Positions 4,633-37,813 of a DNA stretch of 64,000 nt are shown here, piece by piece. Origin of the DNA: Ashinkailepas kermadecensis (lineage: Eukaryota > Arthropoda > Thecostraca > Neolepadidae). The position numbers were made by a program, and so were the translations under genes. Location: NCBI GenBank assembly GCA_034440615.1, contig JAOTOM010001536.1, positions 1-64,000 of the forward strand, given 5' to 3'. Numbering within the stretch: the first letter of the stretch is position 1; every line of letters starts with the position of its first letter. A model generated the notes under the pieces. The model ran no database searches. It was not told where the DNA came from and saw nothing but the letters and a program-made list of their open reading frames with translations.

Positions 4633-5300
4633 GATGATCACAGCTAGAGTGGGCTCCGTCCGGATGTGAGACGGCTCACCACCCTCTGATGATCACAGCT
4701 AGAGTGGGCTCCGTCCGGACGTGAGGCGGCTCACCACCCTCTGATGATCACAGCTAGAGTGGGCTCCGTCCGGACGTGAGGCGGCTCACCACCCTCTGAT
4801 GATCACAGCTAGAGTGGGCTCCGTCTGGACGTGAGGCGGCTCACCACCCTCTGATGATCACAGCTAGAGTGGGCTCCGTCCGGACGTGAGACGGCTCACC
4901 ACCCTCTGATGATCACAGCTAGAGTGGGCTCCGTCCGGACGTGAGGCGGCTCACCACCCTCTGATGATCACAGCTAGAGTGGGCTCCGTCCGGACGTGAG
5001 ACGGCTCACCACCCTCTGATGATCACAGCTAGAGTGGGCTCCGTCCGGACGTGAGACGGCTCACCACCCTCTGATGATCACAGCTAGAGTGGGCTCCGTC
5101 CGGACGTGAGGCGGCTCACCACCCTCTGATGATCACAGCTAGAGTGGGCTCCGTCCGGACGTGAGGCGGCTCACCACCCTCTGATGATCACAGCTAGAGT
5201 GGGCTCCGTCCGGACGTGAGGCGGCTCACCACCCTCTGATGATCACAGCTAGAGTGGGCTCCGTCCGGACGTGAGACGGCTTCACCACCCTCTGATGATC
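4633..5300. repeat. 55-bp minisatellite carrying the donor of the TM exon
   Basis: About 12 units of 55 bp share the core GATGATCACAGCTAGAGTGG, with only a few C/T and A/G variants. On the minus strand each unit holds GTGATCATCAGAGGGTG|GTGAGC, the last 15 nt of exon 12 with a donor that fits consensus slightly better than the exon-proximal one (GTGAAG). Confidence 0.94.
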
Positions 5301-5433
5301 ACAGCAAGGCAGATGAGGAGACAGATGGCGCAGACGACGCCCGAGCACACCAGGGCGATCACGTGCGGGTGCCACTGCGCCGCCGACTCCACGTTCATGG
5401 ACTTCTCCGGCACAAGCGTCGGAGACACGGTTG
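5286..5433 (-). CDS. Dscam-like: Dscam-like exon 12: juxtamembrane and transmembrane segment
   Basis: This exon has about 148 nt and starts in phase 1 after GATTTTCAG. It encodes TVSPTLVPEKSMNVESAAQW, then a hydrophobic stretch of about 24 residues (HVIALVCSGVVCAICLLICL followed by AVII) and Arg. This places a single membrane helix directly after FN6, as in Dscam. Two donors 3 nt apart, GG|GTGGTG and GGTG|GTGAAG, give the same phase; I use the second. The donor region is repeated about 12 times to the left. Reading on without splicing gives TGA two codons later. No following exon was recognised. Confidence 0.85.
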
Positions 5434-6318
5434 CTGAAAATCGTCAGGACTTCGTGTCAAGCGCAGATAGTGGTCCACGTAGCAAGGTGAGTCTATGGTG
5501 GAGTGGTCAGCAACCTGCATAGCTACGGCTTCTTTTGGATAAGCCCACGAGTGCTCGAGGTGAGTGCTTTATGCAATGCAGGTAAGACATAGTAAATTTG
5601 TTGGAAGTCCGATGACATGTGTCCACCTCGTTCCTAGTATTGTTGAATACTGAATACGTCTAATGCTATGTTACACCAGAAATGCTTAGATGGTGTAACT
5701 ATTAAAAAAAGCAAACCTAGGTGCTCCTTATATCACAAAGCAACCACCAGTCGCCATATTGTTGAGAGCGTTCAGCCCAGGTTGTGGCACCATGCCGTCA
5801 TCTATATCGTCATCTATATCGTCATCTATATCGTCATCCATATCGTCATCTATATATTCATCCATATCGTCATCTAAATCATCATCTATATCGTCATTTA
5901 TATCGTCCATGACACTTTCTACATCGCCATATACAGGGGCTTCACTTTGCATACTTTTGGATAGCCATTGCTCCCATGCTATTGGTCTCACCCCAACCCG
6001 GTGTCATTTCCTCCCCCTTCACAATGTTCATCGTGCAGAAATGCCTGGAGTCCAGCCCACCCCCAGAAACTGAGCATTGAGATCCGCCAGAAGTCGTGCC
6101 AATCTTGAGCTCTGAACCATTTCTCCCTGACTGCCCTCCCCAATGATTTTCATTAAACGACACTCTTGACCACGTAACGGCCTGAAAATACGAGCCGGTG
6201 ACATCACCTGCGATTTCTATCTCCATCGCACCAAACACCTGAGGCACAGACGAGATTCGGATCCCAGCACGACACCGCCCTCTATATCCAAGGCAAGGAG
6301 AATACTAGTGCCACCTAC
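5434..6318. repeat. Intron with 12-bp microsatellite (5797-5915)
   Basis: About 10 units of 12 bp, core TATCGTCATC, lie at 5797-5915. They give acidic IDDD-type open frames on the minus strand that are not a gene. The remainder of this intron between exons 11 and 12 shows nothing recognisable. Confidence 0.85.
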
Positions 6319-6606
6319 CGCCGTCGGCTGTCAGCGTGGCCACGTGCCAGCTGGTCTCGATGACCCCCGCCTGGCTGAGGGCCTCTGCCCGCACGTGGTA
6401 CACGGTGCCGGCCAGTAGGCCGCACAGCTCGGCCAGGTCGTCGTCGGGTCCGAACGGGCCGACCTCAGTCCACGGCGCGTGCTCGCCGGCCGGCCGCAGC
6501 CGCACCATCACCCTGGTGACGTCACACTCGGACGGCCAGGCGTACAGGCCGAGTGTGACGCAGCTGGCGTTGACGGACAACGCGGCGCCGGGCAGCGGCC
6601 GAGGTT
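6319..6606 (-). CDS. Dscam-like: Dscam-like exon 11: FN6
   Basis: This exon has 288 nt, phase 1 to phase 1, carrying a whole Fn3 domain. The acceptor is GTTACAG|AA and the donor is GGCG|GTAGGT. It encodes PRPLPGAALSVNASCVTLGL, then YAWPSECDVTRVMVRLRP and LLAGTVYHVRAEALSQAG, ending WHVATLTADG. The V-N-A-S-C-V-T-L and AWP words, and the ATLT-x-DG end before the membrane exon, are typical of the last Fn3 domain of Dscam. GC-rich at third positions. The intron before it is about 350 bp. Confidence 0.92.
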
Positions 6607-6954
6607 CTGTAACGTGGAATACCAGCTGTGGCTTAACGTTTGGCGAGCGAAGGCGCGGTCAGGTTTGCTTAAAAGCCACGTCAAGGCCGTTGTGGGTCTG
6701 CGAGCTCGGAAACGGTCGAGTTTTTTTTCTTCTATTTATGGTCAGTTTCATATCTTGTCGCGTAATTATGCACACGGTTCATGAACGCGCTCAGATTACA
6801 CTTCTTGTTTGAAAGGAAATGTTTTGAAACCTTTAAGACACTGATCGGTGTCCAGTAACTTTCTAGTAACGGAAGTTTTGTTCCAAATGTACCTTTTCAG
6901 TTTGTCCTTCCTTCGCAAATTAACAATAACAGTACAGTACTGAGTCGAACTTAC

Positions 6955-7140
6955 TACTTCCTCTCGTTGATATGTAGATAGTTTCACTCTGTGGCCCTGT
7001 GCCGATGGCGTTTTGCGCTGCCACGGACACAGCGTACTCCGTGCCACAGAAGAGTCCTTTTAAGGTCACTTCTGATCTAAGATCATGCAGGGTTATCCGC
7101 TTTTCTAAGCCAGAATCGGCACGGTAGCGGACATGGAACG
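6955..7140 (-). CDS. Dscam-like: Dscam-like exon 10: second part of FN5
   Basis: This exon has 186 nt, phase 1 to phase 1. The acceptor is TTTTCAG|CG and the donor is AGTA|GTAAGT. It encodes FHVRYRADSGLEKRITLHDL, then VTLKGLFCGTEYAVSVAAQN and IGTGPQSETIYISTRGS: strands C to G of Fn3. Both splice sites are strong and no array touches them. The exon is separated from exon 9 by a 2.9-kb intron that is mostly 57-bp array. Confidence 0.9.
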
Positions 7141-7542
7141 CTGAAAACAGGGTGATGTTATTAGCTATCATGGCAAGTAGAATGTAATGGTAGTTGGACT
7201 GCTGAGAGTGCATCATGGTGACTGAAATTCCCGTGATACGGTGTGTTTTATCGCAGCGTAGTTATGTGAGCCTTGTGCATAATGGGCTAGCGATACTTTA
7301 TATTAACCAACCACAGCAGGAACTCTTTGCATGTGTTAAATGCGGGCTTTCCCGAACAATAGTCCCCTCCCATATGATCCTCAAATTCATATACTGAGGG
7401 GACTTCAGCCTCCGAGCTGATCAAGCGAAGTGAAAACTCCACATTTTATTTTAGTAGCCACCCGGCAAGACTCCTGTCATAAGCTCTTATGCAGTAGAAC
7501 ACCTACCAACAAGCACAACTCCATCCTGCATCTTCTCCTGCC

Positions 7543-10027
7543 CCAGCACCGGTCCCACAATTGCGGTGACCGGCAGCCCACCCTGCAGCTGACCCCACCT
7601 CAGCGCCGGTCCCACATGTGCAGTGACCGGCAGCCCACCCTGCAGCTGACCCCACCTCAGCGCCGGTCCCACATGTGCAGTGACCGGCAGCCCACCCTGC
7701 AGCTGACCCCACCTCAGCGCCGGTCCCACATGTGCAGTGACCGGCAGCCCACCCTGCAGCTGACCCCACCTCAGCGTCGGTCCCACATGTGCAGTGACCG
7801 GCAGCCCACCCTGCAGCTGACCCCACCTCAGCGCCGGTCCCACATGTGCAGTGACCGGCAGCCCACCCTGCAGCTGACCCCACCTCAGCGCCGGTCCCAC
7901 ATGTGCAGTGACCGGCAGCCCACCCTGCAGCTGACCCCACCTCAGCGCCTGTCCCACATGTGCAGTGACCGGCAGCCCACCCTGCAGCTGACCCCACCTC
8001 AGCGCCGGTCCCACATGTGCAGTGACCGGCAGCCCACCCTGCAGCTGACCCCACCTCAGCGTCGGTCCCACATGTGCAGTGACCGGCAGCCCACCCTGCA
8101 GCTGACCCCACCTCAGCGCCGGTCCCACATGTGCAGTGACCGGCAGCCCACCCTGCAGCTGACCCCACCTCAGCGCCGGTCCCACATGTGCAGTGACCGG
8201 CAGCCCACCCTGCAGCTGACCCAACCTCAGCGCCGGTCCCACATGTGCAGTGACCGGCAGCCCACCCTGCAGCTGACCCCACCTCAGCGCCGGTCCCACA
8301 TGTGCAGTGACCGGCAGCCCACCCTGCAGCTGACCCCACCTCAGCGCCGGTCCCACATGTGCAGTGACCGGCAGCCCACCCTGCAGCTGACCCCACCTCA
8401 GCGCCGGTCCCACATGTGCAGTGACCGGCAGCCCACCCTGCAGCTGACCCCACCTCAGCGTCGGTCCCACATGTGCAGTGACCGGCAGCCCACCCTGCAG
8501 CTGACCCCACCTCAGCGCCGGTCCCACATGTGCAGTGACCGGCAGCCCACCCTGCAGCTGACCCCACCTCAGCGCCGGTCCCACATGTGCAGTGACCGGC
8601 AGCCCACCCTGCAGCTGACCCCACCTCAGCGCCGGTCCCACATGTGCAGTGACCGGCAGCCCACCCTGCAGCTGACCCAACCTCAGCGCCGGTCCCACAT
8701 GTGCAGTGACCGGCAGCCCACCCTGCAGCTGACCCCACCTCAGCGCCGGTCCCACATGTGCAGTGACCGGCAGCCCACCCTGCAGCTGACCCCACCTCAG
8801 CGCCGGTCACACATGTGCAGTGACCGGCAGCCCACCCTGCAGCTGACCCCACCTCAGCGTCGGTCCCACATGTGCAGTGACCGGCAGCCCACCCTGCAGC
8901 TGACCCCACCTCAGCGCCGGTCCCACATGTGCAGTGACCGGCAGCCCACCCTGCAGCTGACCCCACCTCAGCGCCGGTCCCACATGTGCAGTGACCGGCA
9001 GCCCACCTCAGCGCCGGTCACACATGTGCAGTGACCGGCAGCCCACCCTGCAGCTGACCCCACCTCAGCGCCGGTCCCACATGTGCAGTGACCGGCAGCC
9101 CACCCTGCAGCTGACCCCACCTCAGCGCCGGTCACACATGTGCAGTGACCGGCAGCCCACCCTGCAGCTGACCCCACCTCAGCGTCGGTCCCACATGTGC
9201 AGTGACCGGCAGCCCACCCTGCAGCTGACCCCACCTCAGCGCCGGTCCCACATGTGCAGTGACCGGCAGCCCACCCTGCAGCTGACCCCACCTCAGCGCC
9301 GGTCCCACATGTGCAGTGACCGGCAGCCCACCCTGCAGCTGACCCCACCTCAGCGCCGGTCACACATGTGCAGTGACCGGCAGCCCACCCTGCAGCTGAC
9401 CCCACCTCAGCGTCGGTCCCACATGTGCAGTGACCGGCAGCCCACCCTGCAGCTGACCCCACCTCAGCGCCGGTCCCACATGTGCAGTGACCGGCAGCCC
9501 ACCCTGCAGCTGACCCCACCTCAGCGCCGGTCCCACATGTGCAGTGACCGGCAGCCCACCCTGCAGCTGACCCCACCTCAGCGCCGGTCCCACATGTGCA
9601 GTGACCGGCAGCCCACCCTGCAGCTGACCCCACCTCAGCGCCGGTCCCACATGTGCAGTGACCGGCAGCCCAACCTGCAGCTGACCCCACCTCAGCGCCG
9701 GTCCCACATGTGCAGTGACCGGCAGCCCAACCTGCAGCTGACCCCACCTCAGCGCCGGTCCCACATGTGCAGTGACCGGCAGCCCACCCTGCAGCTGACC
9801 CCACCTCAGCGCCGGTCCCACATGTGCAGTGACCGGCAGCCCACCCTGCAGCTGACCCCACCTCAGCGCCGGTCCCACATGTGCAGTGACCGGCAGCCCA
9901 CCCTGCAGCTGACCCCACCTCAGCGCCGGTCCCACATGTGCAGTGACCGGCAGCCCACCCTGCAGCTGACCCCACCTCAGCGCCGGTCCCACATGTGCAG
10001 TGACCGGCAGCCCACCCTGCAGCCGAG
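7543..10027. repeat. 57-bp minisatellite carrying the exon 9 donor
   Basis: About 43 units of exactly 57 bp with core CACATGTGCAGTGACCGG are nearly identical, except a few C/T and A/C variants and one unit near 9009 lacking 17 bp between CCACC words. On the minus strand every unit carries CTGCAGG|GTGGGC, the exon end and donor of exon 9. Because 57 is a multiple of three, the frame through the array stays open for about 11 units until a TGA near 9361. The long open frames in this interval on both strands are products of the array. Confidence 0.95.
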
Positions 10028-10194
10028 TGTGGCCGTCGTCGACGAGTCGCCAGCTGAGCGCCAGCTGTGTGGCTGACGTCCGTAGCACGGTGGGCGCGGT
10101 GACCCGGGGCAGCTGGAGCACCTTGAGTCGTACCGTGATCGAGTCGCTGCCGTACACGTTGTCTGCCGAGCACGTCCAGTTCCTGGCGTGCACG
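10016..10194 (-). CDS. Dscam-like: Dscam-like exon 9: end of Ig10 and start of FN5
   Basis: This exon has 179 nt, phase 2 to phase 1. The acceptor is CTGCGCAG|C and the donor is CAGG|GTGGGC. It encodes VHARNWTCSADNVYGSDSIT (Ig strand F with the second cysteine, then strand G), VRLKVLQLPRVTAP, and the FN5 start RTSATQLALSWRLVDDGHTR. The usual D-x-G-x-Y-x-C of Ig strand F is here H-A-R-N-W-T-C, so Asp, Gly and Tyr are replaced. The donor was chosen because the join to exon 10 restores 18 residues from Trp to the strand C Tyr and matches phase. The donor is the start of the 57-bp array. Confidence 0.87.
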
Positions 10195-10215
10195 CTGCGC
10201 AGCAGGGGTGTGTCG

Positions 10216-10365
10216 GTCAGGGGTGCACACGGTGAGGTCAGGTCAGGTGAGACTGTGCACACGGTGAGGTCAGGTCAGGTGGGACGGTGCACACGGTGAG
10301 GTCAGGTCAGGTGGGACGGTGCACACGGTGAGGTCAGGTCATGTCAGGTCAGACGGTGCACACGT
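10216..10365. repeat. 32-bp array just upstream of the exon 9 acceptor
   Basis: About 4.5 units have period 32 bp and core GTGCACACGGTGAGGTCAGG, starting at 10223, 10255, 10287 and 10319, with a partial unit at 10356. It begins roughly 20-30 nt upstream of the exon 9 acceptor and so occupies its branch-point and polypyrimidine region. Confidence 0.85.
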
Positions 10366-10715
10366 CTTGGAGCGTGGCCGTCGGGAGCTATAGTTTCGGC
10401 AGTAGATTCTTCGGGACATAGGTGGCACATGCTATCACAACATATAAGGAATGGCTGCGATTTAATAGCGTAGCGAAGAGGTTGAGTGCAATAAATAATT
10501 AATTGGAAGCTTTTAGCATATAGGAAACACCTAAAAATGCTGCTACTTTCTATCTCAAGTTAGGAGTGAAATGGTGACGGTAGGTACTTTACATTAATCA
10601 TTAAATGAGAAACCTTTGTACGCAACACGAAAATTGGCCACCCCTCTCCTTCTCTTACCACTGCACTTACACATCCATCTCTGTTGAAATCTTCTATGCT
10701 TCGAAATTCAATTGA

Positions 10716-10845
10716 TGTCAACATTACCTGGATACTTGGCTGATGAAGAGGCTGCCGTTCTGGCGTGTAGAGGCGACCAGTGTCAACATTACCTGGATAC
10801 TTGGCTGATGAAGAGGCTGCCGTTCTGGCGTGTAGAGGCGACCAG
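10716..10845. repeat. Perfect 65-bp two-copy duplication over the Ig10 donor
   Basis: Two copies, 10716-10780 and 10781-10845, appear identical. Each contains the end of exon 8 and its donor TCCAG|GTAATG. The right copy is the exon. The left copy lies in the intron and has a second full donor. The lack of divergence suggests a recent event. Confidence 0.93.
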
Positions 10846-10970
10846 TGCCCGCAGTGGTCGGTCCGACGTCCAGACGGGGACCGGTGACGGCACGCCCAGT
10901 GCGATGCAGTCCAGTGTCAGAGGCCGACCATTCTCGGCCATCACCAGTCGCGAGAACGAGGCTATCTGGG
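10793..10970 (-). CDS. Dscam-like: Dscam-like exon 8: first part of Ig10
   Basis: This exon has 178 nt, phase 1 to phase 2. The acceptor is GTTCCAG|CC and the donor is TCCAG|GTAATG. It encodes QIASFSRLVMAENGRPLTLD, C, IALGVPSPVPVW and RQNGSLFISQVS. This is an I-set Ig domain with the first cysteine (LTLDC) and the core tryptophan (PVW). QIASF is the Dscam signature between FN4 and Ig10. The last 54 nt of the exon with its donor are duplicated exactly once more in the intron (65-bp period). If the first donor were skipped, TAA follows at once. Confidence 0.88.
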
Positions 10971-12032
10971 CTGGAACTGACGTTACGGCCCGATCAACTG
11001 ACCAGTCGCGAGAACGAGGTCACTAAGCCGGGACCGGGGGTCACGACCTGATCAACTAACCAGTCGGGGAAGTGGGTCTTGACCAGATTAACTGATCAGT
11101 CGGAAGAACGAGACTATGTGGGCTGGCCTTGATGCTAAGGAGTTAGATATACTGGCTGCATAATTTTGTCGCGCAAACGCCGCTTCTTTTATGTGGCTTT
11201 GGTGCCATTTTATGAGATCATTGCACATCTCTGAATTATAGAGAATTGTTTTCTGCATTCGAACATTTTTATAGAGGCGTGAGCACCTCCAGAATGCATA
11301 ACATACGAGGACAGATTCCATGATAAAGATGATGAAGAGTTCTATTATAAGATATAAGATATATATATATATATATAAGATATAAGATGATGAAGTGTTC
11401 TATTAACAAGAAGAGACATGGAACTTTCTGCGTGTGTGGAATAAAATGATACAGAGCTTAATGTGACCAAATTTCGATTGTTTCCAGGCAATATTTTTCA
11501 AATGAAGTGGCACGGAAAGCGAGTATTGATCTAATTATAAAAGAGAATCTGGCACACTGCAAAATGGGAAACGAGGGAATACTATATAGACTTTAATAGT
11601 TTTACAAGTCACGGTTTTTTCAGGAGACGATTGAAGTCCCCTAACAGCTACTTTTTTCTTACGCTTTGTGGTACTGTTGCACTTCTTGCCAATGCTTTGG
11701 TACTCTTCGTGTTACTGTTACATGTACTTGCGAACACAGAATCAAAATGTGCTGCAAATTATCGTTGAAAGATCAGCCACCTAACGGCGCGCTTTATGCG
11801 CCATTCGAAGTCGAGCTATGTCACCTTAGATCACAGGAAATACAGTATCATTTTTAGCTTCACGTTTTTAGTATCACTTTAACCATCGCAGTCCTTTTTC
11901 GCGCCATCGACTGAGTAATGCTGCGTCAAACCTCTAGCCCCTGTTCATGCACGCCATCTTGTCATCTTTCCCAAGGTAGGGGGTAACTGCGACCCACAGA
12001 ATTTCCAATAAACATGAACATAAAAACAGTTT
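10971..12032. other. Intron sequence, no gene seen
   Basis: Three imperfect copies of an AACTGACCAGTCGCGAGAAC-type word lie at 10945-11110. A TA microsatellite lies at 11358-11378. The rest is AT-rich and unremarkable. Confidence 0.6.
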
Positions 12033-12239
12033 GTTGCATGCAAGGGCGTCGCCACCGGGGGGGGGGGGCAGGGGGCAGTCGCCCCCTGCCGTCAAACGGG
12101 GGGCGCCGCCCCCTGACATTTGAGGAGGCCCCTATCCGGAAATACACAGGAAAAAGTGAGCAACGAGGCCGACGAGACACGAGAGGAGGCCTCCAAGACG
12201 TGAGAGGAGGCCCCTAATTTGAAGAAGGAGTCACCTAGG

Positions 12240-13815
12240 AGGGGATAGGAGTCCCCAGAAATCACGAGAGTGCCAACAATTGGCACGGAGGCCCCCAGGA
12301 ATGCAAAGGATGCCCCCAGGATTGCAAACGAGGCCCCCAGGATTACAAAGGAGGCCTCCAGGATTACAAAGGAGGCCTCCAGGATTGAAAAGGAGGCCCC
12401 CAGGATTGCAAAGGAGGCCCCCCAGGATTGCAAAGGAGGCCCCCAGGTTTGCAAAGGAGGACTCAAGGATTGCAAAGGAGGCCCCCAGGAATGCAAAGGA
12501 GGCCCCCAGGATTGCAAAGGAGGCCTCCAAGATTACAAAGGAAGCCCACATGATTACAAAGGAGGCCCCCAGGATTGCAAAGGAGGCCTCCATGATTACA
12601 AAGGAGGCCCCCATGATTGAAAAGGAGGCCCCCCAAGATTGCAAAGGAGGCCCCCAGGATTGCAAGGGAGGCATCCATGATTACAAAGGAGGCCCCCTGG
12701 ATTGAAAAGGAGGCCCCCAGGATTGCAAAGGAGGCCCCCAGGATTGCAAAGGAGGCCCCCAGGTTTGCAAAGGTGGCCTCCAGGATTGCAAAGGAGACCC
12801 CCAGGAATGCAAAGGAGGCCTTCACGATTGCAAAGGAGGCCTCCAGGATTACCAAGGAGGCCCTCAGGATTGCAAAGGAGGCCCCCAGGATTGCAAAGTA
12901 GGCCTCCAGGATTACAAAGGAGGCCCCCAGGATTGAAAAGGAGGCCCCCAGGATTGAAAAGAAGGCCCCAGGATTGCAAAAGAGGCTCCCAGGATTACAA
13001 AGGAGGCCACCAGAATTTCAAAAGAGGACTCCAGGATTGCAAAGGAGGCCCCCATGATTGCAAAGGATGCCCCAGGATTGCAAAGGAGGCCTCCCGGCAA
13101 TGCAAAGGAGGCCCCCAGGATTGCAAAGGAGGCCCCAGGTTTGCAAAGTAGGCCCCCAGGATTGCAAAGGAGGCCCCCAGGATTGCAAAGGAGGCCTCCA
13201 GGACTACAAAGGAGGCCCCAGGATTACAAAGGAGGCCCCCAGGATTGAAAAGGAGGCCCCCAGGATTGCAAAGGAGACCCCAGGATTGCAAAGGAGGCCC
13301 CCGGATTGCAAAGGATGTCCCAGGATTGCAAAGGAGGCCCCCATGATTACAAAGGAGGACTCCAGGATTGCAAAGGAGGCCCGCAGGATTGCAAAGGAGG
13401 ACACCAGGATTGCAAAAGGAGGCCTCAGGATTGATTGCAAAGGAGGCCCCATGATTACAAAGGAGGACTCCAGGATTGCAAAGGAGGCACCAGGATTGCA
13501 AAGGAGGCCCCCAGGATTACAAAGGAGGACTCCAGGATTGCAAAGGAGACCCCCAGGATTGCAAAAGGAGGCCTCCAGGATTGCAAAGGAGGCCCCAGGA
13601 TTGCACAGGAGGCCCCTAGGATTGTAAAGGAGGCCCTCAGGATTGCGAAGGAAGCCCACAGGATTGTAAAGGAGGCCCCCAGGATTGCAAAGGAGGACCC
13701 AGGATTGCAAAGGAGACCCCCCATGATTGCAAAGGAGGCCCCCAGGATTACAAAGGAGGCCCCCAGGATTGCAAAGGAGGCCCTCAGGATTGCAAAGGAG
13801 GCCCCAATACGGGAA
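12240..13815. repeat. 21-bp minisatellite inside the hAT-like element
   Basis: About 75 units have period 21 bp and core CCCCCAGGATTGCAAAGGAG; GATTACAAAG and one-base C-tract length variants are common. Several frames on both strands lack stops, producing RRPPGLQ-like or CNPGGLL-like open frames that are shadows of the repeat. One-base deletions in the C run shift the frame repeatedly, which argues against translation. Confidence 0.95.
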
Positions 13816-18160: not shown

Positions 18161-18263
18161 AGGAGGCCCTAACACAGTGGAGGCCCCTTTTCGAGGAGCA
18201 GGAGGCCCCCTATCAACATTGCCCCCCCTGGAAGAATTTCGTGGCGACGCCACTGGTTGCATG

Positions 18264-19707: not shown

Positions 19708-19750
19708 AACTGTGCTAGCCTGAACGCGGCCAGCTGCTGGCTTGCAGATG

Positions 19751-20485: not shown

Positions 20486-20486
20486 A

Positions 20487-21147
20487 CCCGGCCCTGGCAG
20501 GAGTCACTGGCGCCGACAGGGCCCTGGCAGGAGTCACTGGCGCCGACAGGGCCCTGGCAGGAGTCACTGGCGCCGACAGGGCCCTGGCAGGAGTCACTGG
20601 CGCCGACAGGGCCCTGGCAGGAGTCACTGGCGCCGACAGGCGGCAGGAGTCACTGGCGCCGACAGGGCCCTGGCAGGAGTCACTGGCGCCGACAGGGCCC
20701 TGGAGGAGTCACTGGCGCCGACAGGGCCGGCCCTGGCAGGAGTCACTGGCGCCGACAGGGCCCTGGCAGGAGTCACTGGCGCCGACAGGGCCCTGGCCTG
20801 CCAGGAGTCACTGGCGCCGACAGGGCCCTGGCAGGAGTCACTGGCGCCGACAGGGCCCTGGCAGGAGTCACTGGCGCCGACAGGGCCCTGGCAGGAGTCA
20901 CTGGCGCCGACAGGGCCCTGGCAGGAGTCACTGGCGCCGACAGGGCCCTGGCAGGAGTCACTGGCGCCGACAGGGCCCTGGCAGGAGTCACTGGCGCCGA
21001 CAGGGCCCTGGCAAGTCACTGGCGCCGACAGGCCTGCGGGTCACTGGCGCCGACAGGCCTGGAGGGTCACTGGCGCCGACAGGGCCCTGGCAGGAGTCAC
21101 TGGCGCCGACAGGGCCCTGGCAGGAGTCACTGGCGCCGACAGGGCCA
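20487..21147. repeat. 30-bp minisatellite in the intron between exons 7 and 8
   Basis: About 22 units of 30 bp have core GTCACTGGCGCCGACAGGGC, with truncated units at 20640, 20705, 20735 and 21010-21070. Period 30 keeps frames open on both strands. It is not next to any exon I recognise. Confidence 0.94.
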
Positions 21148-23207: not shown

Positions 23208-23358
23208 TGTTCTTGCGGCCGTTGTACACGACTGTGCGCGAGGGAGCACCCTCGCCGGCGGTGCCGACGGCCGTCACCCAGACCTGGTAGCGCTGGTAGT
23301 GGACCAGGTGGTCCAGGGTCACCACCAGCCGCTGACTCGGCCACCATTCCAACCGGCG
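23208..23358 (-). CDS. Dscam-like: Dscam-like exon 7: second half of FN4
   Basis: This exon has 151 nt, phase 0 to phase 1. The acceptor is CGACCAG|CGC and the donor is AACA|GTGAGT. It encodes RRLEWWPSQRLVVTLDHLVH, then YQRYQVWVTAVGTAGEGAPS and RTVVYNGRKN: strands D to G of Fn3. The motif Y-x-V-W-V-T-A followed by G-E-G-x-PS is typical of the Dscam FN4 just before Ig10. The polypyrimidine tract is poor, so the acceptor is a little uncertain, but it is the site that matches the phase of exon 6. The next intron is 12.2 kb, about half of it one hAT-like element. Confidence 0.86.
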
Positions 23359-23990: not shown

Positions 23991-24217
23991 TGACAGACAG
24001 TGTGACAGACGACAATGACGGAGTCATCTCCGAAGCAGTGGTCAATCGAGCTATATTTAAAATGAGCTACCACATCCGTCTCATCTGCATCGGCAGGGAT
24101 TTCGGGTAGGATTTTGGATAGTGGCGACGAGTTTTTGCTTAGCTTCATTATTTCAATAGAACGCCATATTTGTGATGCTGAATTTGACGACGCTTAGGGG
24201 AAGCGTTCTCCCGATCC

Positions 24218-24450
24218 AGGGGTGGCAGCGACCATGATCCAGGGGTGGCATCGACCATGATCCAGGGGTGGCAGCGACCATGATCCAGGGGTGGCAGCGA
24301 CCATGATCCAGGGGTGGCAGAGACCATGGTCCAGGGATGTGCAGCGACCATGATCCAGGGGTGGCAGCGACCATGATCCAGGGGTGGCAGCGACCATGAT
24401 CCAGGGGTGGCAGCGACCATGATCCAAGGGTGGCATCGACCATGATCCGT
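24218..24450. repeat. 23-bp minisatellite
   Basis: About 9.5 units of 23 bp have core GACCATGATCCAGGGGTGGC. It lies about 200 bp downstream of the donor of exon 6 in the same intron. Confidence 0.92.
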
Positions 24451-24648
24451 GTCAGCGTGCATGTTAGAAGTAATGACGTAATGTACCGACACTTAATACG
24501 TCAAGTACCAGCAAGGTGCTCACCGGGTCCTGATTTCACCATAACTGCGTACCATAATCTTGCTTTAATACTTTCCCTGGGCCTAAAGTACTATATGTAT
24601 GTTGGTTGTTGACCAATCGCTACCCAGCCAGGCACTGTTGTTTCTCAC

Positions 24649-24788
24649 CTGCTCGGAGGAGGCGTACTTCCTGTGGTACACCAAGTAGCGGACGATGTTG
24701 CCGCGTGGCTCGCTGGGAGGCAGCCACGACACCAGCACGGCGGTGGCCGACAGAGAGGTCAGCTTAATGCCGGCCGGCGGGCCCGGCG
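24649..24788 (-). CDS. Dscam-like: Dscam-like exon 6: first half of FN4
   Basis: This exon has 140 nt, phase 1 to phase 0. The acceptor is GTCGGCAG|CG and the donor is GAGCAG|GTGAGA. It encodes PGPPAGIKLTSLSATAVLVS, then WLPPSEPRGNIVRYLVYHRK, ending ASSEQ: Fn3 strands A to C. A complete second copy of the exon start with its own AG lies at 25493 within the 60-bp array, 705 nt upstream. Splicing there would stay open and in frame to the same donor, giving a 281-codon exon. The outermost copy of the exon start (about 26213-26250) lacks the AG. Confidence 0.87.
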
Positions 24789-26255
24789 CTGCCGACAGGG
24801 TGACATGGTGACGGTTAACACGGGACAGCCACGACACCAGCACGGCCGTGGCCGACAGGGTGACATGGTGACGGTTAACATGGGACAGCCACGACACCAG
24901 CACGGCGGTGGCCGACAGGGTGACATGGTGACGGTTAACACGGGACAGCCACGACACCAGCACGGCCGTGGCCGACAGGGTGACATGGTGACGGTTAACA
25001 CGGGACAGCCACGACACCAGCACGGCGGTGGCCGACAGGGTGACATGGTGACGGTTAACACGGGACAGCCACGACACCAGCACGGCGGTGGCCGACAGGG
25101 AGATAGGGTGACGGTTAACACGGGACAGCCACGACACCAGCACGGCCGTGGCCGACAGAGAGACAGGGTGACGGTTAACACGGGACAGCCACGACACCAG
25201 CACGGCCGTGGCCGACAGGGTGACATGGTGACGGTTAACACGGGACAGCCACGACACCAGCACGGCCGTGGCCGACAGGGTGACAGGGTGACGGTTAACA
25301 CGGGACAGCCACGACACCAGCACGGCCGTGGCCGACAGGGTGACATGGTGACGGTTAACACGGGACAGCCACGACACCAGCACGGCCGTGGCCGACAGGG
25401 TGACATGGTGACGGTTAACACGGGACAGCCACGACACCAGCACGGCCGTGGCCGACAGAGAGGTCAGCTTAATGCCGGCCGGCGGGCCCGGCGCTGCCGA
25501 CAGGGTGACATGGTGACGGTTAACACGGGACAGCCACGACACCAGCACGGCCGTGGCAAGGGGAGAGGCGAAGCACGGCCGTGGCCGACAGGGTGACAGG
25601 TGACGGTTAACACGGGACAGCCACGACACCAGCACGGCCGGGCCGACAGAGGACACGGCCGTGGCCGACAGGGTGACATGGTGACGGTTAACACGGGACA
25701 GCCACGACACCAGCACGGCCGGCCGGGAGGAGGGTGGACAGGTGACGGTTAACACGGGACAGCCACGACACCAGCACGGCCGTGGCCGACAGGGTGACAG
25801 GGTGACGGTTAACACGGGACAGCCACGACACCAGCACGGCCGTGGCCGACAGGGTGACATGGTGACGGTTAACACGGGACAGCCACGACACCAGCACGGC
25901 CGTGGCCGACAGGGTGACAAGGTGACGGTTAACACGGGACAGCCACGACACCAGCACGGCGGTGGCCGACAGGGTGACATGATGACGGTTAACACGGGAC
26001 AGCCACGACACCAGCACGGCCGTGGCCGACAGGGTGACATGGTGACGGTTAACACGGGACAGCCACGACACCAGCACGGCCGTGGCCGACAGGGTGACAT
26101 GGTGACGGTTAACACGGGACAGCCACGACACCAGCACGGCCGTGGCCGACAGGGTGACAGGGTGACGGTTAACACGGGACAGCCACGACACCAGCACGGC
26201 GGTGGCCGACAGAGAGGTCAGCTTAATGCCGGCCGGCGGGCCCGGCGCAACAGAC
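24725..26255. repeat. 60-bp minisatellite derived from the FN4 exon start
   Basis: There are about 25 units of 60 bp with core CACGACACCAGCACGGC. On the minus strand a unit is 33 nt of exon 6 coding for LSATAVLVSWL plus 27 nt of intron. Three exon-start copies (the real exon, 25455-25505 and 26212-26255) also contain the PGPPAGIKL segment. The short units look as if they arose by joining two CTGTCGGC words, one in the intron and one in the exon, deleting the acceptor between. Irregular units occur at 25550-25740. Confidence 0.93.
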
Positions 26256-30799: not shown

Positions 30800-31175
30800 A
30801 CAGTCACAAAGTAAAACTGAATACCCTATATACAAATCACAAGGTACAGTCGCAAAGTCAAACTGAATGTACATATATACAAATCACAAGGTACAGTCGC
30901 AAAGTCAAACTGAGGGGACGAGTGGTCTAGGGGTAAGATGCTCGTCTCACAATCGAAAGGTTGTGGGTTCGAGTCTCACCTGTCGCTACTCTTCGCCCGC
31001 GACCAATCGGCGTGAGAGATTGGCGACGCTACATGACTCAACGGTCGACGTGTCGTAAAAACCAATAACCAAAGTCAAACTGAATGTACATATATACAAA
31101 TCACAAGGTACGGTCGCAAAGTCAAACTGAATGTACATATATACAAATCACAAGGTACAGTCACACAGTCGAGCT
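30800..31175. repeat. 46-47-bp tandem repeat interrupted by a SINE
   Basis: About five units have core CGCAAAGTCAAACTGAATG, starting at 30800, 30846, 30893, then 31110 and 31156 beyond the SINE. The SINE landed within the third unit. Confidence 0.88.
30914..31070 (+). mobile_element. tRNA-derived SINE, full-length, with 13-bp target duplication
   Basis: The 157-bp element starts GGGGACGAGTGGTCTAGGGG (A box) and has GGGTTCGAGTCTCACC (B box). The anticodon region CTCACAATCGAAAGG resembles tRNA-Val(CAC). The 3' part holds CGACCAATCGGCGTGAGAGA and ends AAAAACCAATAACC. It is flanked by AAAGTCAAACTGA on both sides (30901-30913 and 31071-31083). The tRNA stem pairings are imperfect, so it is not a functional tRNA gene. 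Confidence 0.92.
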
Positions 31176-32472
31176 GAATGTATATGCAACCAATACAAAT
31201 GCAAAAGTACAAGTGATTTCAGCTTAGATCACTAAATCAAGCATTTCATCGAAATATGAAAATATGAATTATGTGCATTGCGCTGTGACTAATCATATTA
31301 AGAAACTGGATATACGTAATTCAACATATATCCTGTAGCAGTTTTCCGAGTTTTAAATTAATTTCAAGTCACGTCACTGAGGCATGACTTGAAATTTCCC
31401 GAAGTACCGGTATCGTAGGGCTTTGGAACTGAAATACGTATTATTTTGGCTAAGCATGGCTAAACCAAGATTGTGTACACTAATTTGTTGTTGATGGCAT
31501 TGATGTCCCATATTTGATTCGAATATTTTGACTGGGGCATAATGCTCCCCCATCGTCAACGAACATTGGAAAGGATTCAGCTGTGCATTGGTGACACCCA
31601 TTAGCTTCCCTGAGCATAATATGTTTACAAGCTCATTTGTTTTATCAGCTTATCACCTGCGTCCAGGTAGGTGACCTTGACCGGATCGGTGGTCTTGACC
31701 TTTGCACGTTTTAGTGTGCTAAGTTACGCAAGCTTGAATAAAATTGAAGGCGCTTGGAGGTTATCTTTGTTCCGCTATGTGGGGAAGCATAGCACGGCCC
31801 ACGCCAGGAGTGATCAGGCCAGTTGTTGTCGGCAGCTGGCGGCACTCATCTCTGCTGGGTTGCGTTGCTGTCATTACCTGCGATACCCTGGGCTGACTTG
31901 CCGTTGGTGGGTATGATATTCTCCCCACTACAATTCTCTTTTGTAACTAGACACCTATGAGCCGGATGAGCAGTCTACTTATCACCCTTTATAACCCTTA
32001 ATGTTACTTTGAATTGCCTGGACAACGATTAGCCGATGCAGAAATTTTCCTCACCAGGCTGACTGAGAATAGGTCATCAGCAACATACAAAAGTTTGCAC
32101 ATGGTCGATATTGAAGTGCGAAGTCGTACTTGTTCCACGGCCAGAGTCTGAGGACTACGACAAAGACCGGTAACTAACTTCACCCAGACATTGACCTGCT
32201 TGACCTGACCTGAAAGGCCAACCGGAAGAGGTGAAAATGAATGTTCGAAGTAACTGGAGTTCTAGAGTGGAGCTGCATAATGCACTGCCAAACCTCTTGC
32301 AATGTCGGGGATACGAAATGCTCCGACACGACGACCGCTATCAGTCTGGATAATGCTAGCCTGCCATACCAGATAAGTATATCAAAAGCCTTCCTAAGGG
32401 CACCGGGCAACAGCTTCCAAGAGGACCGCCTCCCCTCCCTCCCACTGGCAACAGCCCAGCCGTACCACTGAC
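31176..32472. other. Intron sequence, no gene seen
   Basis: AT-rich up to 31640 then mixed. No additional exon is needed, because exons 5 and 6 join in phase. Confidence 0.55.
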
Positions 32473-32640
32473 CATCCGCAGCAGTGAGACAGGTCACGGG
32501 AGTACTGAGCGGACCCCGGCCGGCCGCCGTCGCCGCTGACACCAACACCGTGTAGTTGGTGTACGGCAAGAGCTCAGAGATGGTCACCGACGTTCTCTTC
32601 TCATCTTGGAAGTGCACCACATCCTCTGGCGGCAACACGG
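32473..32640 (-). CDS. Dscam-like: Dscam-like exon 5: second half of FN3
   Basis: This exon has 168 nt, phase 1 to phase 1. The acceptor is ACGACAG|CC and the donor is GATG|GTCAGT. It encodes VLPPEDVVHFQDEKRTSVTI, then SELLPYTNYTVLVSAAT and GRGPLSTPV, which are strands D to G of FN3 with the typical L-P-x-T-x-Y tyrosine corner. No array is present at either border. The preceding intron is only about 370 bp. The following intron (24789-32472) carries the 60-bp array, a pseudogene and a SINE. Confidence 0.88.
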
Positions 32641-32958
32641 CTGTCGTTAACGTAGATAGAGCGAGAGTGAGAGCTTGTTTCAACGATTTCCCAACGTCTG
32701 CGGATATGTTCTCCACGACCAATCGATTAAACATCATATAAATTCCTCCCCCACACCTCATAGACCATGAAGGATCTGAACATTTATCGCTGCAATAAGG
32801 CCTGTCAGAATTGATGTTAGACATTTTTGTACTTTTGTTAGTTAATTTGCATGTACTCAAACCCACTTCCCCACACGCCTTCGTCACAAATGATCACAGT
32901 ACATCACAAGGGTGAATCTACGGCTTACCAGCTCGGAGGACTCACCTTACCACTTACC

Positions 32959-33050
32959 ACGTACCAGCTCTATGGATGGTACGCCCCCGGATGAGGTGGT
33001 ATCCGGCTTACCATCTCTGAGGACGGTACGCCGCCAGACGAGATGGTACC
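32959..33050. repeat. 47-bp duplication over the exon 4 donor
   Basis: Two diverged copies (about 75-80% identical by eye) have a period of 47 bp. One lies in the exon around 33010-33050 and one in the intron at 32963-33004. Both include the strand C' coding segment and the donor region. It looks like an older two-copy version of what the large arrays show. Confidence 0.75.
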
Positions 33051-33158
33051 TCTTGACCTGACCCCCAGCCTGGTGGCGAGTAACCCTGCGCCAACTGATG
33101 CGGATGCGAGTGGATGAGAGAATGTCACAAGCCACGCCTCTGGGCTGTCGGTCTGGAA
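33012..33158 (-). CDS. Dscam-like: Dscam-like exon 4: first half of FN3
   Basis: This exon has 147 nt, phase 1 to phase 1. The acceptor is CACCCCAG|TT and the donor is GATG|GTAAGC. It encodes PDRQPRGVACDILSSTRIRI, SWRR, then a loop and KRYHLVWRR, which are strands A to C' of an Fn3 domain with the core Trp and the strand C Tyr. The last 30-odd nt of the exon with its donor are duplicated 47 bp downstream. There the minus strand carries a cluster of good donors (GTACGT, GTAAGT, GTAAGG, GTGAGT). Using the GTG|GTAAGT site ending at 32958 would add exactly 18 codons in frame. The shorter exon gives the more usual Fn3 length. Confidence 0.86.
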
Positions 33159-33558
33159 CTGGGGTGAACCACAGGGTGAAATTAGTCTCAAGAATAATGG
33201 CGGTCGGTACTGTTCAGCATTCTCTTTAATTAACATTCACTAGACACAGACTTGTGCAGCCGTCGACAGCTGACATGGAATCAATAGCAACCACGTATGC
33301 TGTTTTCCACCTGTTGCTGGCTCAAAAGGCTTACGCCCCGGCGCACCCCTTGGTCCCGTAAATGGCACCTGGTACGACCTCCAAGTTTGAACAACTTAGC
33401 CTGCTGTTCACAAAGTGACGAATGACCAGCAAAGTCACACATGTCACGTTAGGACCACAGAGGGAATTGGCACACGTCCACTCACCGACCTGCCACGTGC
33501 TCGCCGTCAGCGGGTCGCCGGCCGGGCCAACACCCGGAACTGGGGCACGTCCACTCAC

Positions 33559-33698
33559 CGGCCTGCCACGTGCTCGCCATCAACGACGTGCTGGCCGGCC
33601 CATCACCGGCCGAGTTGTAGGCGCGCACAGCGACAGAGTAAAGCGTGTCGGGGCGGAGCTTCCGTAACACCACCACCAGCTCCGGACGGCGTACCAGT
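33559..33698 (-). CDS. Dscam-like: Dscam-like exon 3: end of FN2
   Basis: This exon has 140 nt, phase 2 to phase 1. The acceptor is CTGCTCAG|A and the donor is CCG|GTGAGT. It encodes strands E to G of FN2: LVRRPELVVVLRKLRPD, then TLYSVAVRAYNSAGDGPAS and LMASTWQ. The first 45 nt of the exon and its acceptor are the template of the 86-bp array just upstream. The proximal copy differs from the array units (GTACGC and CTGCTCAG against GTGCGC and CTGCCCAG). Only this copy continues into the rest of the domain. Upstream acceptors in the array would read into TGA. Confidence 0.88.
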
Positions 33699-34790
33699 CT
33701 GAGCAGCGGCCCACACACATCTCAGTACGGCTGGTCAGGACGGACCCGCCGTAACACCACCACCAGCTCCGGACGGCGCACCAGTCTGGGCAGCGGCCAC
33801 ACACATCTCAGGACGGCTGGTCAGGACGGAGCCGCCGTAACACCACCACCAGCTCCGGACGGCGCACCAGTCTGAGCAGCGGCCACACACATCTCAGTAC
33901 GGCTGGTCAGGACGGAGCCGCCGTAACACCACCACCAGCTCCGGACGGCGTACCAGTCTGAGCAGCGGCCACACACATCTCAGTACGGCTGGTAAGGACG
34001 GACCCGCCGTACACCACCACCAGCTCCGGACGGCGCACCAGTCTGAGCAGCGCCACACACATCTCAGTACGGCTGGTCAGGACGGAGCCGCCGTAACACC
34101 ACCACCAGCTCCGGACGGCGCACCAGTCTGGGCAGCGGCCACACACATCTCAGTACGGCTGGTCAGGACGGAGCCGCCGTAACACCACCACCAGCTCCGG
34201 ACGGCGCACCAGTCTGGGCAGCGGCCACCACATCTCAGTACGGCTGGTCAGGACGGAGCCGCCGTAACACCACCACCAGCTCCGGACGGCGCACCAGTCT
34301 GGGCAGCGGCCACACACATCTCAGTACGGCTGGTCAGGACGGAGCCGCCGTAACACCACCACCAGCTCCGGACGGCGCACCAGTGGCCCAACACCACCCC
34401 GGACGGCGTACAGTCTGGCAGCGGCCACACACATCTCAGTACGGCTGGTCAGGACGGACCCGCCGTAACACCACCACCAGCTCCGGACGGCGCACCAGTC
34501 TGGGCAGCGGCCCACACACATCTCAGTACGGCTGGTCAGGACGGAGCCGCCGTAACACCACCACCAGCTCCGGACGGCGCACCAGTCTGGGCAGCGGCCA
34601 CACACACATCTCAGTACGGCTGGTCAGGACGGAGCCGCCGTAACACCACCACCAGCTCCGGACGGCGCACCAGTCTGGGCAGCGGCCACACACACATCTC
34701 AGTACGGCTGGTCAGGACGGAGCCGCCGTAACACCACCACCAGCTCCGGACGGCGCACCAGTCTGGGCAGCGGCCACACACATCTCAGCA
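33640..34790. repeat. 86-bp minisatellite built from the exon 3 acceptor and exon start
   Basis: There are 13 to 14 units of about 86 bp, each containing CTCCGGACGGCG. On the minus strand each unit carries a potential acceptor CTGCCCAG|A followed by the first codons of exon 3 (LVRRPELVVVLR), then intron-like sequence with TGA. Length variants include units of 84-88 bp and a truncated unit near 34395. The period is not a multiple of three. The proximal end merges with the true exon at 33660-33698. Confidence 0.93.
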
Positions 34791-36337
34791 GCAGCGGGGC
34801 CCAGGCAATTCCGTGCCGGCACGTCTCGCCATCACACGCCACAGTCAACTGTGAAACAAGGACAACTTGGTAGCAGAAGCCGTGCGTCGCACTGCAACGT
34901 GACGACCGACTTGTCGTGAGTCCAGCCTCTCGGGTCGACTGGTGGCGGGAGGCCGAGTGTCCCCATCGATAGCCGGGACCCTGGCGGGAGGCCGAGTTCC
35001 TGGCGCTTCCCTGTACAGGTGTCGGCACTACCGCTGCACTACCGCTCTACTATCGCAACCTCCTGCAAGGAAGACTGTTGCCGATGATTTAAACAGACAA
35101 CTTCCTTCCAAGAATGACGCTTAGAATAAAGAATGTAAGGCGAATGCGCAGCATTTGTTGCGACAGTGAGTGTTACGAATGCATATGCTGAACATACCAT
35201 TTCACTGCTAACTGTGCATTCAAAGGAATCCGAATATTCGAATTCAAGTCATAACACATACGTGCATAACACATAACACATAACACATAACACATGCGCG
35301 TATTGGTTGACCTCAAGCAATGGTAATACCAACGCTGAAAATGTTCCGTTTCAAATACAGTTCTAACACTCATGTAGTTCGAATATCCTTGAAGCTAAGC
35401 GCCATCAAAGTTCATGAATCAAGTTCTACGATCCAATTTCAGTCAATAAAACGTCAATCTTACTGAACTATTCACCAATTCAAAGCCTGCCTCGCAATAG
35501 CTGTAACTACATGACATCAGAAGTGAAGTTAATCTAGCATGAAGATAGCCGCCTAGTCGCGTTCGCTGATATAATTTCAAATGCATAGCACAGGCCCATT
35601 ACCGAAACAGTGGATTTACCAATGTCTACACTAGCTGTTTCCAGTTCCAGAAGTTTGGTGTTAAAAAATGAAAGGTGAAACTCACACCTACCTAAATGTA
35701 ACTCTGATATATGCTGTCGATGCGCCGCTGAAACCCAAATAAAAACATAAACATAACTCTGATGTGTGTTTGGAGCCAGCGATAGTTCTTAAAAGACTGC
35801 TGCTTCAGACGCCGCGTCAAAGACCATCCATTCAGACTAACCGTGCTAACCGAGCTTCGGAAAATTATGCATTGGCTCCATCAGCTAAAATATAAACCGC
35901 TCTGCTTCACTTCACCCTAATATGGCTGAAGTGTAGCAGTTAAGCAGTTTTTGTCTAAATCGAGCCATCTGACCTTGGATTTGCGCAATCAGCTTGAGAG
36001 ACATTTTATGCTTGCTTCATGGGCGGATTCAAGGATTCAGAAATAGAAGTCTCGTTTTTCGTTGTTCCATTAAGTGGTCATTAATATCACTCCAAGAAGC
36101 TCACCGAACTTGAGACGAAATGTTATGTCATCCTGGGCTTTCCTTGTCAATTTAAGATTTGAAGACTGAGCACGTGACTCCGAATGTTGTCCAGGGCGTG
36201 GGGAGGGGGGGGGGGGAGAAATGCATGCGCCGCCCAGTTGTGTGTGTCTCGGGGATCTAAACACATCAGCTGGCACAGGGATACTATCGCACGTTCGGCG
36301 AGGTGCAATTCGGTTTTGGTCCGAAATTAGTTCTCAC
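34791..36337. other. Intron sequence, no gene seen
   Basis: A TAACACA microsatellite lies at 35250-35297. A G run lies at 36205-36216. Otherwise AT-rich intron between exons 2 and 3. Confidence 0.6.
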
Positions 36338-36423
36338 CTTGTTTTAGCTTCTTTATCTGTTTGACGCACGTAGGTGATCTTGTATCCCAAAAGCTTTCCA
36401 TTCGTCAGCGATAGTGGCGGTGG
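36338..36423 (-). CDS. Dscam-like: Dscam-like exon 2: middle of FN2
   Basis: This exon has 86 nt, starting in phase 0 after acceptor TTCTAG and ending AG|GTGAGA in phase 2. It encodes 28 residues beginning PPPLSLTNGKLLGYKITYVR. This is the B-C loop and strand C of an Fn3 domain, matching the Dscam FN2 pattern W-x-P(4)-x-L-x-NG-x(3)-GY. The exon is small and has no array at either edge. It was found by looking for the piece missing between exons 1 and 3, and both junction phases then matched. The surrounding 1.5 kb on each side is ordinary AT-rich intron. Confidence 0.88.
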
Positions 36424-36984
36424 CTAGAACAGTTAAAAATAGCAACAAGTCAATGATTATGGTCCATTCACGTATCACATCATTTACCACATCACCAATA
36501 CAGCATACCAAGCTCCTAGTAATGCCCATATTTCAATTAACCTTTGAAGGTGCATTGAGTACACTTGACAGTTATGCACTCGTCTATGGTTCAATCAATC
36601 TCATCAGATTTTCTTTGCTTGGTGACACCTAACGTTATGTTATATAACTAGCAAGAAGCTATAACTGAGTGTAGAACACAAAATAGACAGACGGAGCCCG
36701 TATTTATAATGAGACAAGTAAAATATCAGCGACCCAATGACGTAGACTTGCGCATCGACCAACAGCCCACACTGTCCGACTGTTCATAACTGAGGCACCC
36801 GTAGTGTTTGAGGCACCCGTAGTGTTTGCTACAGAGGTGAGTGTGATCAGTCCACCTGCGCACTAATTATTCTGGTCTGCTTGGAACACAATCTGTGATC
36901 TAATCATGGGCCACTATGCCTCAAATGACTAAGACTATGACTAAGACCGGTCCATCAATGCCCTCGGGGCTGCATCCAGTTCAC

Positions 36985-37588
36985 CTACAAGTAAGTAAGT
37001 GTGGCCAGCCCCATGTCTGGGGCCAGTCCACCTGCATCTTCGTGGGTATGGCCAGTCCACATATACCCCATTGCTGTAACCAGTTCACCTGTACCCCGGT
37101 GACCGTATCCAGTCCACCTGTATCCAATGGGTGTGACCAATCTACCTGAATCCCTTGGCTGGGGTCAGTCCACCAGTAGCCACACGACCGCATCCAGTCC
37201 ACTTGTCCCCCGTGGGTGTGGCCAGTCCACCTGTATCCCGTGGGTGTGGCCAGTCCACGTTTAACCCATCGAGTCTGACCAGTCCACCTGTGTCCCGATG
37301 GCCGCATTCAATCCACCTGCATCTCATAGGTGTGGCCGGTCCACCTGTCCCCCGTGGGTGTGGCCAGTCCGCCTGTGTCCCGCGAGTGTGACCAGTCCAC
37401 CTGCACCCCGGGGGAATGGCCAGTCCACTTGCACCTCGGTGGGTGTGGCCAGTCCGCCTGTGTCCCGCGAGTGTGACCAGTCCACCTGCACCCCGGGGGA
37501 ATGGCCAGTCCACTTGCACCTCGGTGGGTGTGGCCAGTCCGCCTGTGTCCCGCGAGTGTGACCAGTCCACCTGCACCCCGTGACTGAC
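36985..37588. repeat. 28-bp minisatellite abutting the exon 1 donor
   Basis: About 21 units carry the core CAGTCCACCTG, with a period of 28 bp. The right part (about 37380-37580) shows an 84-bp higher-order unit, three times 28, repeated nearly perfectly. The array starts about 8-10 nt downstream of the donor of exon 1 on the minus strand. The long minus-strand open frame running out of the exon is created by the array. Confidence 0.9.
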
Positions 37589-37813
37589 GTTCCAGCAGAG
37601 CTGCAGCGAGACGGGCCCAGTGATGCGCAGTCGCACGTTGAGCGGCGGTGCTGCTGGCGGCTCCGCTGCGGTGAGAGTGCTCAGACTGGCGCTGGGACCG
37701 CTGCCGCCGTGTCTGTTGACGGCGAACACTCGCAGACGGTAGTGGGTGCTAGGCCGCAGACCTACCACCAGTGCGCTCCGCTGGCGCCCCGACACCGTCT
37801 CGTTCAGGCCCCA
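37589..37813 (-). CDS. Dscam-like: Dscam-like exon 1 of window: FN1 second half and FN2 start
   Basis: This exon has 225 nt (75 codons, phase 0 to 0). The acceptor is TATTGCAG at 37814-37821 and the donor is AAC|GTCAGT. The protein begins WGLNETVSG, continues with the F-G region LRPSTHYRLRVFAVNRHG of FN1 and the linker EPPAAPPLNVRLRI, and ends SLQLCWN, the tryptophan of FN2 strand B. The donor has C at +3, which is weak. It is chosen because joining to the next exon gives exactly the 16-residue W-to-GY spacing of Dscam FN2. A 28-bp array starts about 8 nt inside the intron. The exon supplying the first half of FN1 was not found to the right. Confidence 0.87.

Follow-up and report, generated by a model that had tools for sequence, protein, structure and literature searches.

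Minisatellite-like repeats that span exon-intron boundaries, known as “mirages”, have been described in lancelets, in the genes for Adh and for the globins BflGb6 and BflGb9 (PMC3087553, PMC3902484), and the second of these papers adds PGBD5 and cites troponin C. Length instability, between haplotypes or in somatic cells, and undisturbed splicing have both been reported for lancelet mirages, and the BflGb6 mirage comprises 3 and 6 units in two haplotypes. In human segmental duplications, internal tandem repeats occur where exons border on introns (PMC2812944). Here, we describe a 64,000-nucleotide stretch of the genome of Ashinkailepas kermadecensis (GenBank assembly GCA_034440615.1, contig JAOTOM010001536.1, positions 1 to 64,000 of the forward strand; hereafter, the window) containing a Dscam2-like gene in which six to eight of the 24 junctions are affected by such repeats, probably as an arthropod counterpart of the lancelet mirages.

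The gene lies on the minus strand. Joined together, the 12 exons that we placed gave one frame of 682 codons with no stops, compared with 22 and 14 stops in the alternative frames, and this spliced frame excludes the arrays and stays intact throughout. Pfam assigned to the product fn3 domains, the DSCAM/DSCAML C-terminal Fn3 domain, and one immunoglobulin (Ig) domain. A protein search scored 7991 candidates (those with most words in common, of a length up to about 1190 residues), and the top-scoring protein was Dscam2 from the barnacle Pollicipes pollicipes, with 47% identity and 52% query coverage. When compared by sequence with solved structures, the product gave titin and contactin as the top matches, and Dscam (7y8s) lower, at 2.4e-19. 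In Dscam proteins, the run of FN3 domains includes an Ig domain, and a DSCAM C-terminal Fn3 domain and a transmembrane segment are present as well; the same layout was found here, the transmembrane segment having been read by eye. The exons are as follows:

37589..37813, minus strand: exon 1 (FN3), from the open frame and the Pollicipes alignment
36338..36423, minus strand: exon 2, from the joined open frame
33559..33698, minus strand: exon 3 (FN3), from the open frame and protein matches
33012..33152, minus strand: exon 4, from the joined open frame
32473..32640, minus strand: exon 5 (FN3), from the open frame; both edges score only 16–17/30 in the self-similarity scan described below
24649..24788, minus strand: exon 6 (FN3), from the open frame and protein matches
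23208..23358, minus strand: exon 7, from the open frame and protein matches
10793..10970, minus strand: exon 8 (Ig), from the open frame and Pfam
10016..10194, minus strand: exon 9 (Ig/FN3), from the open frame and protein matches
6955..7140, minus strand: exon 10 (FN3), from the open frame and protein matches
6319..6606, minus strand: exon 11 (DSCAM C-terminal Fn3), from the open frame and Pfam
5286..5433, minus strand: exon 12 (transmembrane segment, by eye), from the open frame

A search of the window with homologous proteins placed the matches of three of them on these exons. Among the rows listed for the three proteins, none lies above position 37816, and exons for the amino-terminal Ig domains may be located outside the window. 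For exon 1, we preferred the donor TGGAAC/GTCAGT, which ends the exon at 37589, because the distance between the FN3 tryptophan and the NG motif fits (by eye) that of a Dscam2 protein (P0003), and because the Pollicipes alignment stops after the same tryptophan. The donor CAG/GTGGAC at 37571 was dropped in its favor. The frame test, the array listing, the self-similarity scan, and the earlier position and near/far intron tests were made with the donor at 37571, whilst the Pollicipes alignment, the event test, the intron-end test, and the repeated position test were made with that at 37589.

Arrays were identified with Tandem Repeats Finder (TRF) and by counting copies, and all anchored copy counts include the genuine junction. 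With a period of at least 20, TRF reported 19 arrays within the gene span. Five of them contain a junction (the donors of exons 12, 9, and 8 and the acceptors of exons 6 and 3), a sixth lies 10 bp or less from the donor of exon 1, and a seventh terminates 27 bp ahead of the acceptor of exon 9. A self-similarity scan of the 24 exon edges gave 15–17/30 at 13 edges and at least 22/30 at the other 11; it confirmed a repeat at the exon 4 donor and further revealed that the donor of exon 3 is duplicated and that the exon 8 acceptor is weakly repeated. A possible repeat at the exon 7 acceptor was a degenerate 22/30 match only, and was left uncounted as doubtful. Both 5′ and 3′ boundaries are affected, and many copies carry splice signals. 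The exon edge is repeated together with its splice site at the donors of exons 12, 9, 8, and 4 and at the acceptors of exons 3 and 6. The unit spans the exon-intron boundary at the donors of exons 12, 9, 8, 4, and 3 and at the exon 3 acceptor; at exon 6, this is limited to the longer copies. The junction repeats are:

4632..5305, minus strand: exon 12 donor array of 55 bp (TRF), 13 anchored copies
7544..10023, minus strand: exon 9 donor array of 57 bp (TRF), 43 anchored copies, starting 7 bp inside exon 9
10222..10341, minus strand: 32-bp array (TRF) ahead of the exon 9 acceptor
10716..10847, minus strand: exon 8 donor duplication, two copies of 65 bp, 100% identical (TRF and self-similarity)
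10943..11112, minus strand: weak, diverged exon 8 acceptor-side repeats, at a 58-bp offset and further (self-similarity scan)
24784..26212, minus strand: exon 6 acceptor array of 60 bp (TRF), 23 anchored copies made of exon 6 pieces and intron tail
32921..33050, minus strand: diverged exon 4 donor duplication at a 47-bp offset, 32/40 identical, with an extra 21-bp piece
33473..33607, minus strand: exon 3 donor duplication, two copies at a 73-bp offset (self-similarity scan)
33647..34782, minus strand: exon 3 acceptor array of about 86 bp (TRF), 13 anchored copies
37021..37582, minus strand: array of 28/57/85 bp just inside intron 1 (TRF, copies and distance)

Two large arrays lie away from exon edges, namely one deep in intron 7 (12287-13805), in which a 21-bp unit recurs about 72 times with 84% matches, and a 30-bp array at 20490-21146.

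That repeats are anchored on the splice sites of one Dscam-like gene had been claimed in a sequence-only reading of the window, and was borne out by the 12-exon open frame, TRF, and the copy counts. At the exon 12 donor, for which 12 copies had been claimed, the junction ATCAGAGGGTGGTGA is kept in 12 of the 13 anchored copies. All 43 copies expected at the exon 9 donor were recovered, 41 of them with the donor CTGCAGGGTGGGC, although the exonic part of this unit amounts to only 7 bp. The two 65-bp copies at exon 8 were likewise found, and each has the donor site. The pair claimed for the exon 4 donor exists in diverged form and is absent from the TRF list. Two repeats had been overlooked, those at the exon 3 donor, where a second GTGAGTGG lies within intron 3, and at the exon 8 acceptor. 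The intron 1 array, said to abut the exon 1 donor, does lie within 10 bp of it; however, with the preferred donor at 37589, the array is intronic and does not contain it.

On the acceptor side, the 13 copies attributed to exon 3 were all found, with the acceptor kept in 12 and exonic sequence making up about 50 bp of the unit. For exon 6, the position of the array at the acceptor side held, but not its description as 25 copies containing the acceptor: there are 23 copies, and the common 60-bp unit is missing 45 bp, acceptor included. CTGTCGGC flanks the missing 45-bp stretch on either side, and longer copies of 105 bp retain the exon start. Of the three occurrences of the exon 6 start, two have AG, the real acceptor being one of them. 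The 32-bp array said to abut the exon 9 acceptor is close to it, but stops 27 bp short.

We compared the 10 junction repeats in all 45 pairs, and 43 pairs were no more alike than the best of 100 shuffles. Since the units are mostly unrelated, most of the repeats are independent events, as the sequence-only reading had supposed for all of them. The exceptions are the 57-bp donor and 32-bp acceptor repeats of exon 9 (10016-10341), which are alike beyond shuffling (28 vs. 22) and may therefore not be independent of each other, and the exon 8 donor and exon 6 acceptor repeats, which barely exceed the shuffles (22 vs. 21).

Lancelet mirages show concerted evolution with diverged cluster edges. Here, inner copies of the arrays are nearly identical, and diverged edges are seen at exon 3, at exon 12, and at the distal end of exon 9, but not on the exon side of the latter. 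The genuine copy of the exon 3 array has its divergence in the exonic part; at exon 9, the distal copy has 10 differences and the exon-side copy equals the consensus. A pair of variants recurs in the exon 9 array at 9452/9395, 9224/9167, and 8899/8842, a pattern such as block duplication would leave. These recurring variant pairs, and the presence of length variants, are difficult to reconcile with copies that were inflated or invented during assembly, as are the diverged repeats that also occur at edges of exons 4 and 8. It is true that the 65-bp pair is 100% identical, and that an amphioxus mirage was reported to have been aberrantly assembled in the draft genome (PMC3087553), but we regard an assembly artifact as quite improbable.

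A further consideration is whether the arrays are functional, be it as splice decoys under selection, as alternative coding sequence, or by regulating splicing so as to diversify Dscam. Sequence is kept at most copied sites, and intronic minisatellites have been linked to splicing elsewhere, including CeRep25B in C. elegans and those in TERT intron 6 and ABCA7 in humans. The 57-bp exon 9 unit and the 60-bp exon 6 unit would preserve a reading frame, and that of the exon 9 array is indeed open through about 11 copies, so that any surprise from RNA evidence would be expected here. Nevertheless, these two are the only multiples of three among the 10 unit lengths, so that selection for alternative coding use is left unsupported by the unit lengths. 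Moreover, the common exon 6 unit lacks the acceptor, and the frame of the exon 6 array matched five proteins with a coverage of just 8–22%, with the array peptide in none of the five and no annotated repeats among these matches. We therefore consider a function of this kind improbable.

The arrays might also be remains of the origin of the introns by tandem duplication of exon sequence. In the Rogers model, the repeat supplies both ends of the new intron, and Zhuo et al., in 2007, are said to have traced introns to tandem arrays. Such an origin has been proposed for mirages (PMC3087553) and for human tandem repeats (PMC2812944). Here, none of the 11 introns had ends that were alike beyond the maximum of 200 shuffles, and intron 5 was slightly above the 95% shuffle level (25 vs. 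23). A repeat shared by both ends of an intron, which intron birth would predict, was thus not found. In addition, the Pollicipes protein has gaps close to the donor of exon 3 and where exons 9 and 10 join. The introns at these places may therefore be shared and older than the near-identical array copies, as judged from one annotated protein whose gene structure was not seen. Intron birth is, in our estimation, highly unlikely.

Tandem arrays cover 29% of the gene span, compared with 7% of the remaining window (about four-fold less). With such a cover, plain overlap between arrays and junctions is to be expected; we therefore rejected it as a test and collapsed each array to one unit. Five of the 19 collapsed units contain a junction, where 0.74 would be expected with random placement (p 0.0006), 1.58 when the unit G+C content is matched (p 0.011), and 2.12 when placement inside exons is also barred (p 0.032). 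For arrays of at least 500 bp, four of seven contain a junction, against expectations of 0.33 (random, p 0.0001), 1.14 (G+C matched, p 0.011), and 1.65 (exon placements also barred, p 0.040); allowing a distance of 10 bp adds a fifth (1.56 expected, p 0.004; exons barred, 1.84, p 0.008). These statistics describe a single locus that was picked afterwards for its odd look.

We also asked how many of the 24 junctions lie in duplicated sequence. With the donor at 37589, this was the case for 5 to 9 across five settings, compared with 1.4–3.1 expected from circular shifts (p 0.002–0.017). Plain matching for G+C raised the expectation to 3.4–6.0, with p of 0.04–0.23 (e.g., 7 observed vs. 4.95, p 0.20), and with the donor at 37571 the p values ranged from 0.05 to 0.20 over ten settings (e.g., 8 vs. 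4.94, p 0.09); the junction arrays themselves form part of the pools used for plain matching. When the comparison was with G+C-matched intron lying over 150 bp away from junctions, the expectation was only 1.4–2.9 (p 0.0003–0.009). With the donor at 37571, 5% of the intron sequence beyond 150 bp is duplicated, compared with 30% of that nearer to junctions, and where G+C is at least 0.58, the figures are 8.5% and 71%. The excess at junctions is thus modest: in the event test it exceeds composition by a factor of two to three, and in the position test with plain G+C matching it is mostly non-significant. It is partly tied to G+C-rich exon edges, as the sequence-only reading had allowed in offering chance enrichment at such edges as one cause.

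Two explanations meet on this evidence. According to the first, these are ordinary minisatellites in a G+C-rich, repeat-dense gene, and their overlap with junctions reflects composition and selective notice, with no tie to splice sites. The four-fold array cover of the gene, the weak result from plain G+C matching, and the choice of the locus for its oddness all speak for it; the comparison with G+C-matched distant intron and the G+C-matched event tests (p 0.011–0.032) do not, and we rate it as a serious possibility at somewhat less than even odds. The second invokes a process acting at junctions that would seed duplications, for instance when transcription or splicing gives rise to breaks or slippage. 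That four of the seven longest arrays contain a junction, with a fifth within 10 bp, would be in keeping with it, as would the dense duplication of G+C-rich intron near junctions, except that such intron largely consists of the arrays themselves. Given also the single locus, the mostly non-significant result with plain G+C matching, and the hypothetical nature of the mechanism, we view a junction-acting process as doubtful.

The reading that we favor, with a probability of roughly three in four, is that the introns of this arthropod Dscam2-like gene carry minisatellites of the mirage type, in which a founding duplication expanded into the intron and was tolerated by splicing. We base it on the intact frame and the units of exon edge plus splice site at donors and acceptors alike, on the near-identical inner copies of the arrays and the block-like variant pairs at exon 9, on the agreement in anatomy with the published mirages, in which both boundaries are affected, and on the excess of junctions in the event test (5/19 vs. 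1.58). In outline, a short tandem duplication would, by chance, span an exon edge, and its unit would then multiply into the intron through unequal exchange or conversion, carrying copies of the splice site along. Splicing would presumably stay on the exon-proximal site, with the arrays being removed along with the intron and therefore near neutral. Of this reading, the founding mechanism, the neutral tolerance, and the non-use of the copied sites are what we infer. Three observations weigh against it. The basis is the genomic sequence of one haplotype; the exon-side copy at exon 9 does not differ from the consensus, whereas the cluster boundaries described for lancelets are diverged; and neutral tolerance by itself leaves unexplained why duplication is more frequent near junctions than deep in introns (30% vs. 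5%).

A broader proposition would be that junctions are preferred birth sites of minisatellites genome-wide, here and likewise in lancelets and further marine animals of high polymorphism, through one junction-linked mutational process; we think this unlikely. Lancelets have very high polymorphism, and their lineage may share this property with that of barnacles. For the latter, extreme diversity has been reported in Balanus improvisus (PMC8270832). If the pattern did prove to be genome-wide, it would provide a natural system for studying how the spliceosome chooses among dozens of near-identical sites, and a way to ask whether junctions are hot spots of tandem duplication.

Several other features were noted in the window. 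Two tRNA-Val (CAC) predictions with equal Rfam scores, at 30914-30989 (plus strand) and 43885-43961 (minus strand), may be repeats derived from tRNAs and not genes; that on the plus strand sits in intron 5, between 47-bp repeats. Open frames at 42295-42687 and 42869-43453 (both plus strand) resemble, by eye, pieces of a non-LTR reverse transcriptase. At 52898-53024, the arthropod telomere-type repeat is present as about 25 copies of TAACC, or TTAGG when read from the opposite strand.

How does the locus compare with known systems? Intron gain by tandem duplication (Rogers; Gao and Lynch 2009; the potato RdRp case, PMC4974935) likewise involves repeats with splice signals, but in the model the repeat supplies both ends of the new intron, whereas the intron ends do not match here. 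The human minisatellites, too, sit where exon and intron meet and may give rise to introns or splice sites; they differ in being differences between recent paralogues, half of them coding, whereas those described here are intronic and in a single gene copy (PMC2812944). The closest likeness is to the lancelet mirages, which share boundary-spanning repeats on both the 5′ and the 3′ side, with AG and GT signals copied in many units. The view of the sequence-only reading that no such phenomenon had been described was thus mistaken (PMC3087553, PMC3902484), although among the literature matches listed, “mirage” in the sense of exon-intron repeats was reported from lancelets only. Compared with lancelets, the present case was read from a single haplotype's DNA, is in an arthropod, involves a single gene with six to eight of its 24 junctions affected, and reaches 43 copies, as opposed to the 3 and 6 units of the BflGb6 haplotypes. 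It would thereby extend the mirage to an arthropod gene and add an extreme case, in which many exon edges are copied, one of them 43 times, and the coding frame is intact. The kind is already known from lancelets; what looks new is its dense occurrence in an arthropod.

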